Below are positions 30,379-39,763 of a stretch of DNA of 64,000 nt, piece after piece. Origin of the DNA: an uncultured Bacteroidota bacterium (GTDB lineage Bacteria; Bacteroidota; Bacteroidia; Flavobacteriales; Flavobacteriaceae); assembly GCA_902510415.1 (NCBI GenBank), contig CABXBH010000005.1, positions 1 to 64,000 on the forward strand, read 5' to 3'. The notes under the pieces were generated by a model. That model saw only the letters and a list, made by a program, of their open reading frames with translations. It was not told where the DNA came from and made no database searches. Every line of letters begins with the position of its first letter. Positions within the stretch are counted from its first letter, which is position 1. A program made the translations under genes and the position numbers.

Positions 30379-31755
30379 ATGAATATTGATGTCCTATACA
30401 ACAAACAAAAAAACTTTACTAATTCACAAAAGAAAATTGAAGTTAAAGAAAGGATTCATTTTCTTAAGAAATTAAAAAATGAAATATTAAAAAGGGAAGA
30501 AGAAATATTCACGGCATTAGAGAAAGACTTAAATAAACCTAGATTTGAAGCTTATGCCACAGAAATAGGTTATTTGTTAAATGAAATTGACTTATTTATA
30601 AATAATTTAAAATCCTGGTCAAAACCAAAAAGAGTAAATTCTACATTAATTAATTTTCCTTCAAAAGATTTTATTATATATGAACCATATGGATTAATTT
30701 TAATAATATCTCCTTGGAATTACCCGTTTCAGCTTGCTTTGCTACCTGCAATGTCTGCCTTTGCAGCTGGCAATAATGTCATCCTAAAACCTAGTGAACA
30801 CACCTCTAACACCTCAGCCTTAATAAAAAGCATAGTAAGTGAAGTATTTCCTGAAGAACTGATAAGTGTTATTGAGGGCGGTGCTGAGACAGCATCAAAA
30901 CTACTAGACTATAAATGGGATTATATATTTTTTACAGGAAGTGTAAGAATTGGTAAAATAGTAGCCAAGGCAGCTGCAAATAATTTAACCCCTATAACTT
31001 TAGAGCTAGGAGGTAAAAGTCCTGCGATAATTGACAAAAAAATTGATATTAAACTTGTTAGTAAAAGAATTGTTTGGGGCAAGTTTTTAAACTCAGGACA
31101 AACATGTATAGCTCCAGACTATCTTATTATTCATAAATCAATCAAAGATAAATTCATAAATCAACTGATTGACAGAATAAAATATTCGTTTGGAGAATCA
31201 TCCGAAAGATCAAAAGATTTAACCAGTATCATTAACGAGAACCACTTTGAAAGATTAGTGAAATTAATTGAAGGAAATGAAGTAATATATGGTGGAGAAT
31301 ACGACTCTAAGCTAAAATTCATTTATCCTACAATAGTAAACAACCCAAGTCTGGATAGTAACATCATGAGAGAAGAAATTTTCGGACCTATTCTACCTAT
31401 TTTAACATATGAAAATATTAAAGAAATTGATGAAATAATTAATAAAAACCCAAACCCACTTTCACTCTACTTATTTTCAAATGATAACGATTTAACTGAA
31501 AACATAATTAATAGATATAGTTTTGGAGGGGGAGCAATTAATGATACTATTGTTCATTTAGCTAATTCAAAACTACCTTTTGGCGGTATAGGCAATAGTG
31601 GAACTGGCTCCTATCACGGAAAATCTAGCTTTGACTTATTTTCTCATAAAAAATCGATTGTAAAAAAAGGTAATTGGTATGACAATAATCTAAGATATGC
31701 ACCTTACAAAAATAAATTGAATCTACTAAAAAGACTGATGAAATATTTAAGATAA
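30379..31755 (+). CDS. Aldehyde dehydrogenase family protein
   Basis: 'ISPWNYPFQL', 'LELGGKSPAII', 'NSGQTCIAPDY'. Confidence 0.92.
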   Translation: MNIDVLYNKQKNFTNSQKKIEVKERIHFLKKLKNEILKREEEIFTALEKDLNKPRFEAYATEIGYLLNEIDLFINNLKSWSKPKRVNSTLINFPSKDFIIYEPYGLILIISPWNYPFQLALLPAMSAFAAGNNVILKPSEHTSNTSALIKSIVSEVFPEELISVIEGGAETASKLLDYKWDYIFFTGSVRIGKIVAKAAANNLTPITLELGGKSPAIIDKKIDIKLVSKRIVWGKFLNSGQTCIAPDYLIIHKSIKDKFINQLIDRIKYSFGESSERSKDLTSIINENHFERLVKLIEGNEVIYGGEYDSKLKFIYPTIVNNPSLDSNIMREEIFGPILPILTYENIKEIDEIINKNPNPLSLYLFSNDNDLTENIINRYSFGGGAINDTIVHLANSKLPFGGIGNSGTGSYHGKSSFDLFSHKKSIVKKGNWYDNNLRYAPYKNKLNLLKRLMKYLR

Positions 31756-32586
31756 ATTGATAAAATTAAACTTGATTTTGTCTCCTTGTTTCTTTTGTGA
31801 CAAAACACTTATAGAAAGATTATCTAATTGTAAAATTCTAGGATAACCACCTGTCACCTGCCCATCTTGCATTAATACAATAAGTTTTCCAGAAGGAGTT
31901 AACTGAACTGTTCCAGGAATTACAGGAGAACTAACAATTGAAAAAGAATTTGGACATATATCTTCGTTAAAAAAATAACCCATTCTATTATTATTTGAAA
32001 TAGTGAAAAGCTCATTTGAAAGCTTAAAAATATCATCTGAATTTAACAATTTAAACTCAGGTCCTTTTGAAACATTTATATTTTTTACAAATAAAAAACC
32101 AGAGTGATTCAAGTAATTTTTCTTTGATTTTTTATTATTTAAAAAATTGTATCTATCTCCTGTTTTTATAACTGAGTCAGTTGTTATAGAAGAGTACATA
32201 CTACGACTGTTTAGGACTTTTTGGGAATCGATACCACCTTCAATCGCCAAATAGATTCTATATCCTTCTATTGCTTTACCAAAAGATAAAATATCATTTT
32301 TAAGAACTTGAATCTTAGTATTATTTTTAACAACATTGTTGTTTAATTGAACATCAAATAAACCCCCTGAAATACATATACTAGTATCTGAATGGAATCT
32401 AAACTTGCCTCCCATCATAGTTATTTCAAAAACTGCTTCATTTAATGAATTTGAAAGAAGACCATTAGCTTTATTCGCTGAAATTGAATCCATAAAACCA
32501 GATCTAGTGACTCCATAAGCTGAGTAACCATTTCTTCCAGAGTCTTGGATAGTAATATGATATCCTTTATCTAAAATCTCAATCAT
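31747..32586 (-). CDS. pxpC: 5-oxoprolinase subunit C / carboxyltransferase-like
   Basis: 'DSGRNGYSAYGVTRSGFMD', 'VQLTPSGKLIVLMQDGQVTGGYPRI'. Confidence 0.9.
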   Translation of the reverse strand: MIEILDKGYHITIQDSGRNGYSAYGVTRSGFMDSISANKANGLLSNSLNEAVFEITMMGGKFRFHSDTSICISGGLFDVQLNNNVVKNNTKIQVLKNDILSFGKAIEGYRIYLAIEGGIDSQKVLNSRSMYSSITTDSVIKTGDRYNFLNNKKSKKNYLNHSGFLFVKNINVSKGPEFKLLNSDDIFKLSNELFTISNNNRMGYFFNEDICPNSFSIVSSPVIPGTVQLTPSGKLIVLMQDGQVTGGYPRILQLDNLSISVLSQKKQGDKIKFNFINLS

Positions 32587-33310
32587 GATTATATTTTTTT
32601 ACAAATTGATATTTATCTTTTTCAACTTTTTTCTTGATATCGTAATACTCAACTGATGAAATTGATTTGAATTGTACATAATCACCAACAGGAATATTAA
32701 CTGGTGAGCTATTATTATTTAAATTGAATAAATTAATAGGAGTATTTCCGATTACATACCATCCACCAGGTGAATCAGCAGGATATACCCCTGTCTGACC
32801 ACCTCCTATTGCAACAGAACCTTTTAAAATTTTTCTATCAGGTATTTTTTTACGTGTAATTGATAATTTTTTATTTAACCCTCCCAAATACATGAATCCA
32901 GGTATGAAACCATACATATGTAAATAGTATATATTTGAAGAATGTAGATTTATTACTTGCTCACGACTCAATAATACTTTTTCAGAATACACTTTAATGT
33001 CTTTTGCAAAATCACTTTCATAACAAACGGGTATTTCCCAAATAATTTTGTTTTCAGAATTTTGTTTTAGTGATTCATTATATGTTTTATTCAAAGAATC
33101 GCAACTTAGATCAAAGTCTGCAATATCATTTCTATACTGCACCAATACTGAACTGTAACCTTTTATGATTTCAAGAATATTTTTCTCATTCCTTATATGC
33201 TTTATAAAATTATGAATGTCATTTGATATTTCAACAGAAATTATATTAGGCCAACTTAAAAGAATTGAGCTGGAACTGTAATGAAAAAAATCAATTTTAA
33301 ATTTCTTCAT
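32579..33310 (-). CDS. pxpB: 5-oxoprolinase subunit B
   Basis: 'YGFIPGFMYLGGL', 'GSVAIGGGQTGVYPADSPGGWYVIGNTP'. Confidence 0.9.
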   Translation of the reverse strand: MKKFKIDFFHYSSSSILLSWPNIISVEISNDIHNFIKHIRNEKNILEIIKGYSSVLVQYRNDIADFDLSCDSLNKTYNESLKQNSENKIIWEIPVCYESDFAKDIKVYSEKVLLSREQVINLHSSNIYYLHMYGFIPGFMYLGGLNKKLSITRKKIPDRKILKGSVAIGGGQTGVYPADSPGGWYVIGNTPINLFNLNNNSSPVNIPVGDYVQFKSISSVEYYDIKKKVEKDKYQFVKKYNHD

Positions 33311-36587: not shown

Positions 36588-37991
36588 TTATATATGAATA
36601 GCTCTATTTTCTGTTGCAGCCATTGCAGCCTCTTTAATTGCTTCTGAAAAAGTAGGATGTGCATGAGATATTCTTGCAATATCTTCAGCTGTAGCTTTAT
36701 ACTCCATCGCAACAACAGCCTCAGAAATAAGATCAGCGCATCTAGCACCAATCATATGAACTCCTAATATTTCATCTGATTGAGAATCAGCAAGAATTTT
36801 TACAAAACCGTCTAAATCAGAACTTGCCCTGCTTCTTCCTAATGCTCTCATTGGAAACTGGCCGACTTTATAATTTTTATTAGCATCTTTTAAATCTTCT
36901 TCTGTTTTACCTACTGAAGCTACTTCAGGCCAAGTATATACAACACCTGGTATTAGATTATAGTCGATATGAGGTCTTTGACCGCTTATAAATTCAGCTA
37001 CATAAACACCTTCTTCCTCAGCTTTATGAGCCAACATAACCCCTTTTACCACATCCCCAATTGCATAAATATTAGAAACATTTGTTTTGAGGTTTTTATC
37101 TACTTCTATTCTTCCATATTTATCTGATAAAAGTCCCGCATTATCTAAATTAAGACCATTAGTATAAGCACTTCTACCAATAGAAATCAAACAATAATCT
37201 CCTTCAAATTTTACGTTTTCTCCCTTTTTATTTTCAGCTGAAACAATCACTGATTCACCATTTCGATCAATAGAAGTGACCTTGTGTGAAGTATTTATCT
37301 TAACACCGCTCTTTTTAAAAACTTTAGTAAGTTCTTTTGAAAGACTTGCATCCATATTAGGTATAATTCTATCTTGATATTCAATGACCGTAACCTTAGC
37401 ACCAAGTCTACTATAAACCTGACCAAGTTCAAGGCCAATTACACCTCCCCCAACTATAACTAAATGTTTTGGGACCTCTTTAAGTTTTAATGCCTCAGTA
37501 GATGAAATAATTCTTTCACCATCAAAATCTGCAAACGGAAGTTTTGTAGGCTTACTACCAGTAGCTATAATTATATGCTTACCCTCAATAGTTTCTGTTT
37601 TAACCTCTGATTTTATCTGAATTGTATTTGAATTCACAAATGAACCTAAACCATTAAAAACGGTAACCTTATTTTTATCCATTAAGTATTCTAAACCTTT
37701 TGTTGTTTGCTCAACAACTGAAGATTTTCTAGACATCATTTGTTCTAAATCGAGCTTAATATCTCCTTCAACCACAATACCATGATTTGCAAAATTGTGC
37801 AGAGCATTCTCGTAATGATGAGATGAATCAAGTAATGACTTACTTGGAATACAACCAACATTTAAACAAGTTCCTCCCATTTTTGAATATTTTTCAATCA
37901 ACGCAGTTTTCATACCCAATTGTGCAGCTCTAATTGCAGCAACATATCCTCCTGGTCCTGAACCGATAACGATTACATCAAATGTGCTCAT
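36588..37991 (-). CDS. lpd: Dihydrolipoyl dehydrogenase
   Basis: 'GSGPGGYVAAIRAAQLG', 'GGTCLNVGCIPSKSLL', 'HAHPTFSEAIKEAA'. Confidence 0.95.
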   Translation of the reverse strand: MSTFDVIVIGSGPGGYVAAIRAAQLGMKTALIEKYSKMGGTCLNVGCIPSKSLLDSSHHYENALHNFANHGIVVEGDIKLDLEQMMSRKSSVVEQTTKGLEYLMDKNKVTVFNGLGSFVNSNTIQIKSEVKTETIEGKHIIIATGSKPTKLPFADFDGERIISSTEALKLKEVPKHLVIVGGGVIGLELGQVYSRLGAKVTVIEYQDRIIPNMDASLSKELTKVFKKSGVKINTSHKVTSIDRNGESVIVSAENKKGENVKFEGDYCLISIGRSAYTNGLNLDNAGLLSDKYGRIEVDKNLKTNVSNIYAIGDVVKGVMLAHKAEEEGVYVAEFISGQRPHIDYNLIPGVVYTWPEVASVGKTEEDLKDANKNYKVGQFPMRALGRSRASSDLDGFVKILADSQSDEILGVHMIGARCADLISEAVVAMEYKATAEDIARISHAHPTFSEAIKEAAMAATENRAIHI

Positions 37992-38110
37992 ATTTCATAA
38001 ATTTAGGTTTCAAAAATACAAATATTTAAATGTTAAAATAATTTTTAAACTATTAAAATTGATTTTGGTAAATTAGTGCTTTATTCAAACCAAATCTACT
38101 TTATACTTCA

Positions 38111-38323
38111 ATGAAATCTAAACCTGCTAATAAAATACAAGACTTACAATTTTTTGGAGAATTTGGAGGTGTAAACCCTTCAATATCAGAAATTTCTGAA
38201 TCTGAGCAAGAACAGATGGGGTTAAGTGAAGGCTTAATAAGATTTTCTGTAGGATTAGACCAAGACATTGAAAGAACTTATCTAGCAATTAGAGAATGCA
38301 TTAAAGAATTTAAGCTTCTCTAA
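38111..38323 (+). pseudogene. 70-aa in-frame remnant of a Cys/Met-metabolism PLP enzyme (N-terminus joined to C-terminus, catalytic core missing)
   Basis: N-terminal 'LQFFGEFGGVNPSIS' joined to C-terminal 'EISESEQEQMGLSEGLIRFSVGLDQDIERTYLAIREC', matching both ends of flavobacterial MdeA/MetC-like PLP enzymes from memory; stop abuts the nhaC ATG (TAAATG). Confidence 0.65.
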
Positions 38324-39763
38324 ATGGAAACAAACTCCTCAAAAATAAGCTTGATTAAATCAATCATACCAATTACGATATTGATATCTTTATTATTCTA
38401 CAACATTATCTTTTTTGAGAATAATGATTGGCTAGGTGAATTTACTTATCATTATATTTTAATCTCCACATCGATAATTGCTACAATCATTGGGCTTTCA
38501 GAAAAGATTAAGGTATCATTTGTGATTGAGAGAATATTTTCAAGTATTAAGAGTATAAGCATCCCTATTGTAATTCTTCTTTTAGTTGGGGCACTTGCTG
38601 GTACATGGAAAGTAAGTGGAATCATTCCAGCGATGGTTTATTATGGTTTAAACATGGTAGATCCGAGTATATTTTTACCCCTAACACTAATAGTTTCAAC
38701 TCTTGTTTCTTTAACAACTGGAAGTTCATACACAACATCTGCAACGGTTGGAATTGCTTTAGTTGCTGTTGGAATTGCTTTTAATATTCCTGCTGGTATG
38801 ACAGCAGGAGCCGTTATTTCTGGAGCATATTTTGGAGATAAAATGTCTCCGCTAAGTGATACAACAAATCTAGCTCCAGCTATGGCAGGCACAGATCTTT
38901 ACTCACATATTAGATACATGACATATACAACAGTTCCAACATATATTATTACTTTGATTGTTTTTATTTTATTAAGTTTTAATCTTCAAATCAACTCAGT
39001 AGGTGAAATGAGTGAGATTAATAATCTTTCCGAAACTATTATAAATGATTTTTACATATCCCCTGTTTTATTCTTGGTTCCAGCATTAGTAATCTTATTG
39101 GCTTTTTTAAAAGTTCGTCCAATTATTGCTTTAAGTTTCGGAATCATTGGAGCAATTATATTCTCAATAGTTTTTCAAAATAACATTTTAGAAAGTATAG
39201 ACCCATCCAAAACCTCATCTGTAATTTTATCTGTTTTTACAGACACAAGCATTCCGACAGAAAATATAAGAATTGAAAGATTATATAACTCTGGTGGTAT
39301 GAAAGGTATGTTATGGACTATTTATCTTACAATAAGTGCAATGGTTTTTGGAGGGTCAATGGATGGAATTGGTGCATTAAAGAAAATCACTGACTACCTT
39401 TTAAGTAAAGCGAAAACTACGTTTGGACTTTTTGCAAGTACTGCAGCAAGTTGTCTAGGGATTAATATTGTTGCCTCAGATCAATATCTAGCAATTGTAA
39501 TTCCTGGAAAAATGTTCAAGGATGCTTATGAAGAAAAAAAATTATCTCCTGAAAATCTTAGTAGAACTCTTGAAGATACCGGAACAGTAACATCCGCATT
39601 AATTCCATGGAATACTTGTGGAGCATATCATTATGGAGTACTAGGAGTTTCAGTTACGGATTATTTTATATATGCAATTTTTAACTGGCTTAGCCCAGTA
39701 ACTACATTGATATATGCAGCATTTATGATAAAAATCAAGATGCTGACAAGTCATAAAATTTAA
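38324..39763 (+). CDS. nhaC: NhaC family Na+/H+ antiporter-like transporter
   Basis: Multi-TM, 'TGSSYTTSATVGIALVAVG', 'GAYFGDKMSPLSDTTNLAPAMAGTDLY'. Confidence 0.9.
   Translation: METNSSKISLIKSIIPITILISLLFYNIIFFENNDWLGEFTYHYILISTSIIATIIGLSEKIKVSFVIERIFSSIKSISIPIVILLLVGALAGTWKVSGIIPAMVYYGLNMVDPSIFLPLTLIVSTLVSLTTGSSYTTSATVGIALVAVGIAFNIPAGMTAGAVISGAYFGDKMSPLSDTTNLAPAMAGTDLYSHIRYMTYTTVPTYIITLIVFILLSFNLQINSVGEMSEINNLSETIINDFYISPVLFLVPALVILLAFLKVRPIIALSFGIIGAIIFSIVFQNNILESIDPSKTSSVILSVFTDTSIPTENIRIERLYNSGGMKGMLWTIYLTISAMVFGGSMDGIGALKKITDYLLSKAKTTFGLFASTAASCLGINIVASDQYLAIVIPGKMFKDAYEEKKLSPENLSRTLEDTGTVTSALIPWNTCGAYHYGVLGVSVTDYFIYAIFNWLSPVTTLIYAAFMIKIKMLTSHKI

Follow-up and report, generated by a model that had tools for sequence, protein, structure and literature searches.

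A 70-codon open reading frame that ends exactly where an nhaC-like transporter gene begins raises the question of whether it encodes a protein in its own right, serves its neighbour, or is what remains of a larger gene. The frame lies in a 64,000-nucleotide stretch of DNA (the window) from an uncultured member of the Flavobacteriaceae, whose genome, here G000, is a draft of 63 contigs with an estimated completeness of 68%. In the first-pass annotation it was read as the two extreme ends of a methionine gamma-lyase-like enzyme joined head to tail and possibly kept because the preserved frame couples translation to nhaC, with a functional truncated protein and an assembly collapse offered as alternatives.

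Composition of the remnant and identity of the lost enzyme

The frame runs on the forward strand from an ATG at 38,111 to a TAA at 38,321–38,323, and the ATG of nhaC follows directly at 38,324 (TAAATG). It joins, in frame, codons 1–26 of a Cys/Met-metabolism PLP enzyme of 399 residues to that enzyme's final 44 codons (Table 1). In a search of 201 Flavobacteriaceae genomes, residues 1–29 matched the N-termini and residues 23–70 the C-termini of the same genes of ~400 aa, as at G153:C27, where the head corresponds to 31,472–31,558 and the tail to 32,528–32,665. This alignment of the halves to opposite ends of one family, set beforehand as the point on which the head-to-tail reading could fall, upholds that reading. 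Amino-acid identity within the genus is 83–93% for the head and 57–74% for the tail; on its own the remnant matches PF01053 weakly and through the tail only (14.7 bits; Pfam cut-off 27). Set against the intact sister genes, the PLP lysine is indeed missing from a remnant that sits directly before nhaC, as had been proposed. The loss had been put at roughly 340 residues; the exact figure, by comparison with the 399-aa sister genes, is 329 codons (987 bp). The features of a deletion remnant are found together here: both gene ends are present, the middle is absent, the context is that of the intact gene in relatives, and a short direct repeat marks the junction. The deletion, its junction and the conserved context are in this sense shown by sequence comparison. 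No full-length copy of the lost subfamily was found elsewhere in G000, within its estimated 68% completeness; the check for one, proposed at the outset, recovered two distant paralogues, L001, which passes a cystathionine gamma-synthase cut-off, and L002, neither of which is a full-length copy of the lost gene.

The intact sister enzyme aligns over residues 19–380 with solved methionine gamma-lyase (MGL) chains, an alignment that takes in the hs[lv]tk motif of the PLP lysine, and is a member of PF01053. Its best score is to methionine gamma-lyase models, far below every curated cut-off shown (for TIGR01328, 297.2 bits against 549.7), and the active-site cysteine of Citrobacter MGL (YGCT; PDB 3jw9) is replaced by glycine (YGGT). 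Methionine gamma-lyase, the label first given, was rejected as the identity on these two grounds and stands as the nearest named relative only. Judged by its sequence, the lost protein should be called a Cys/Met PLP enzyme, with no specific substrate assigned. The downstream gene resembles the NhaC antiporter family through PF03553 and falls short of the TIGR00931 cut-off (Table 1). Neither a riboswitch nor any other known RNA was found near the enzyme-nhaC unit, the sole RNA in the window being a tRNA located elsewhere.

Table 1. Features of the locus, with positions in the window
Feature	Position	Strand	Evidence
lpd, dihydrolipoyl dehydrogenase-like; synteny anchor	36588..37991	-	order kept in 17/21 same-genus genomes; name from the first-pass annotation and sequence
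Conserved divergent intergenic region between lpd and enzyme-nhaC; presumed promoter of the enzyme-nhaC unit	37992..38110		kept in all sister intervals, partly even in G217 (74% over 76 bp); promoter role inferred
Head of deleted enzyme, start codon and codons 1–26 including junction repeat	38111..38190	+	85–88% nucleotide identity over upstream region and head to intact sisters; residues 1–29 up to 93% identical
Deletion junction, 6-bp direct repeat ATCAGA common to head and tail sides	38185..38190	+	against intact genes, head aligns as far as interval base 199 and tail from base 194
Tail of deleted enzyme, final 44 codons with TAA stop	38185..38323	+	57–74% identity with the C-terminal ends of sister enzymes of ~400 aa
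nhaC-like transporter, Na_H_antiporter family, intact, 479 aa	38324..39763	+	PF03553 E 2.4e-52; TIGR00931 366.7 bits, cut-off 370

Recurrent loss at one locus

The interval between lpd and nhaC, which the first-pass annotation had suggested comparing across sister genomes, was examined in 21 genomes of the same genus, all of them incomplete drafts. In 17, lpd diverges from an enzyme locus and nhaC that share the opposite strand, in the same order as in the window. An intact enzyme of 399–400 aa occupies the locus in 12 (G209, G211, G212, G214, G216, G203, G218, G202, G201, G215, G210 and G204); in G207 and G208 the locus is interrupted by contig ends and the enzyme is intact as far as the sequence runs, and in G205, G213 and G219 the same-genus search returned no nhaC and no close lpd match. 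The enzyme is gone from four genomes: G000, G206, G056 and G217. The G206 scar is a 111-aa frame comprising approximately codons 1–102 followed by a frameshift into the last codons, that of G056 starts with GTG and spans 62 aa, with a shift beyond approximately codon 46, and G217 lacks the whole enzyme, with just ~107 bp between lpd and a retained nhaC. Common to all the scars are an unbroken upstream region and a preserved nhaC start. Downstream of the G056 scar, nhaC itself is found in two overlapping frames (G056:C8 8198–9632; L072, L074; 157 and 325 residues matched), the result of either a frameshift or a sequencing error.

A tree built on the lpd and nhaC proteins places G206 as sister to the intact G212 (100%) and G056 as sister to five intact genomes (100%); G000 stands apart, its exact position being poorly supported (52%). 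Since the scar-bearing lineages are separate on this tree, the losses are most simply read as independent, and sequence comparison shows separate losses of this gene in other lineages. Beyond the genus, the enzyme lies upstream of nhaC on the same strand, and often close to it, in 48 of 80 further nhaC loci in public genomes, from which it follows that the pairing is older than the genus.

The junctions in G206 and G056 differ from that in G000, with alignment overlaps of ~4 and ~3 bp respectively, and three different junctions argue against both one inherited event and a systematic assembly fault. An assembly or binning artefact in G000 might be entertained for so fragmentary a draft, the more so as fold-back artefacts do occur in this genome set (at the end of G206 contig C34), yet the site lies inside a 65-kb contig, assembler overlaps are far longer than the 6-bp repeat, three genomes carry three different junctions, and the scars coincide with metH (see below). 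The collapse raised as an alternative in the first-pass annotation is accordingly very improbable, given also the complete loss in G217. No independent copy of the G000 junction was found in viral_contigs.

Coupling, constraint and decay

The suggestion that the deletion was kept because its frame preserves coupling is not established. As a candidate leader ORF, the remnant of a dead enzyme would owe its retention to the ribosomes that its translation delivers to nhaC. This would suit the abutment of its stop on the nhaC ATG, the ending of the shifted G206 frame in a TGA that overlaps the nhaC ATG, the ending of the G056 frame a few bases inside nhaC, and the preservation of the start codon and upstream region in all scars. 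However, the abutment, correctly noted from the start, is also seen in intact sisters (TAAATG in G209, G211 and G214, for example) and so is ancestral rather than a product of the deletion. Two of the three scars, those of G206 and G056, are out of frame, for which reason the in-frame state of the G000 scar is not special. G217 retains nhaC without any remnant, so that the remnant is not strictly needed, and a young scar would look alike without selection. Retention for coupling is, on this evidence, rather unlikely.

Rates of change were compared between the remnant and nhaC. With dS saturated between species, remnant dN is 0.7–1.1 of nhaC dN in G000 pairs of the main clade, as against ~0.4–0.75 when those codons are compared between intact genes of the main clade (ratios calculated by hand from non-independent pairs). 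The excess changes are located in the tail, and the 26 head codons show zero amino-acid changes with respect to G209, G211, G212, G215, G216 and G218. This pattern fits a young scar and is no proof of lost constraint. A new small protein with a role of its own would agree with the open frame and unchanged head codons of the remnant; the remnant's tail, however, changes faster in amino acids than do intact genes, the PLP lysine and most of the fold are absent, and the remnant occurs in no other genome searched, leaving this a highly improbable reading.

The frame is very probably a recent deletion scar, perhaps under relaxed constraint, and not a new protein, with the metH link described below forming part of the explanation at lower certainty. 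The gene of the 399-aa enzyme, which headed a two-gene unit completed by nhaC, probably lost its internal 987 bp by recombination or slippage between the two copies of ATCAGA. The resulting head-tail peptide is presumably functionless, because the PLP lysine and nearly the whole fold are missing. Selection would keep the upstream region and the nhaC start, which would allow the first gene to lose internal sequence and leave head-and-tail scars. Counting against decay are the 26 head codons unchanged with respect to six sisters and the open frame ending exactly at nhaC, with both of which a possible role of the peptide, or of its translation, would be compatible.

Some bacterial pseudogenes form in shrinking genomes when the stretch between two short direct repeats is deleted. 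The present case is like these in its internal deletion, its junction repeat of a few bp, the loss of the first gene of a unit with retention of the downstream gene, and the small genome. It is unlike them in that the same gene has been struck separately in several sister species and the scars coincide with metH.

The metH-metF-metK block and loss of the enzyme

The B12-dependent methionine synthase (metH, in two adjacent frames) is found in three of the 21 same-genus genomes, G000, G206 and G056, exactly those that carry scars. It is thus present in none of the 12 genomes with an intact enzyme and in three of the four that have lost it (Fisher p=0.007, uncorrected for phylogeny and for the three gene families tried), a co-occurrence shown by comparison of these sequences; G217 is without both metH and the enzyme. 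The absence of metH is not mere incompleteness, because in five metH-less genomes (G212, G209, G214, G203 and G217) the empty site can be read directly, an adenylyltransferase-like gene and metK being immediate neighbours there; judging by blast coordinates, G207, G215 and G216 appear to be arranged likewise. In G000 and G056 the order is an APS-kinase-like gene, the adenylyltransferase-like gene, metH, metF and metK, the names other than metH being readings of the sequences.

Two divergent metK types, 70–72% identical in nucleotides, are present in the genus, one linked to metH-metF and the other at the empty site (G000:C22, G206:C34, G056:C3; L172, L173, L174, L182). The metK genes of G000 and G056 are 90% identical and both are 70–72% identical to those of metH-less species, amongst which G212, G209 and G214 share 84–86%; the adenylyltransferase-like gene just upstream is 80–85% identical among most of these genomes. 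In G206, the opening 210 bases of metK match G000 and G056 at 85–86% and the sister genome G212 at 75%, and metH is 91% identical between G000 and G206. As the three metH genomes are separate on the tree and carry a metK of a different type, these identities suggest that the metH-metF-metK block has been exchanged between species, in one direction or the other. A broader proposal, to which a little under an even chance is given, is that the block moves between species by homologous recombination at this one locus and that it is found where the nhaC-linked PLP lyase has been lost, the two constituting mutually exclusive homocysteine/methionine routes in streamlined genomes.

Several further features of the block were noted. 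At the end of G206:C34 (L173 3960–4420) the head of metF runs into a segment of metK in reverse orientation, which reflects either a rearrangement or a fold-back artefact of assembly. This contig end cuts metF in G206, and an initial reading of it as another head-to-tail scar was rejected in favour of a fold-back contig end. Mis-binning of the G206 metH contig is unlikely: by eye, the end of C6 and the start of C34 resemble the two parts of a single gene, arranged as in G056. A lipoprotein-like gene lies between the adenylyltransferase-like gene and metH in G056 and G206 (L174 8845–9855, L177 1945–2625), and seemingly only ~30 bp of its 3' end is kept in G000:C22 (L172 10989–11020), a second deletion scar in that genome. 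Matches to metX and metE above the curated cut-offs were found in none of the 21 drafts, so that both were uninformative as partners of the pattern; their absence indicates that methionine or homocysteine supply in these genomes probably depends on uptake or salvage.

Across the family, amongst Flavobacteriaceae genomes of ≤2.3 Mb (n=38), metH accompanies the enzyme in three of the 15 that have it and is present in 14 of the 23 that lack it (p=0.02, ignoring phylogeny and draft incompleteness). All nine larger genomes examined have metH and eight have the enzyme. The two genes thus tend to coexist in larger genomes and to show a weaker mutual exclusion in small ones. In the titles and abstracts seen, nothing was on point regarding a link of MGL with NhaC or metH in Flavobacteria.

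These patterns suggest that metH and the enzyme can stand in for each other, a causal link that we infer. MetH remethylates homocysteine, and a lyase consuming homocysteine or methionine could become unnecessary or wasteful in its presence. The balance tips slightly towards the gene having become dispensable because these lineages carry metH-metF-metK. Chance or shared ecology is a serious rival to this step and has a substantial probability, if one clearly short of even: genes would be lost at random in genome reduction, with three tips agreeing by luck or habitat. Only three genomes have metH, both genes are lacking in G217, gene loss is common in small genomes, and the family-wide p is only 0.02 with phylogeny ignored; against this, the match is exact (3/3 versus 0/12), the three genomes are phylogenetically separate, the empty sites are confirmed in five genomes, and the family-wide trend runs in the same direction.

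The scar itself is ordinary gene decay, and its value is that of a marker. Repeated loss of the enzyme in MetH lineages points to its role, which may lie in homocysteine or methionine consumption or in an alternative to remethylation. The locus also provides replicate natural cases in which to compare how gene content in small Flavobacteriaceae genomes changes with B12-dependent methionine synthesis.
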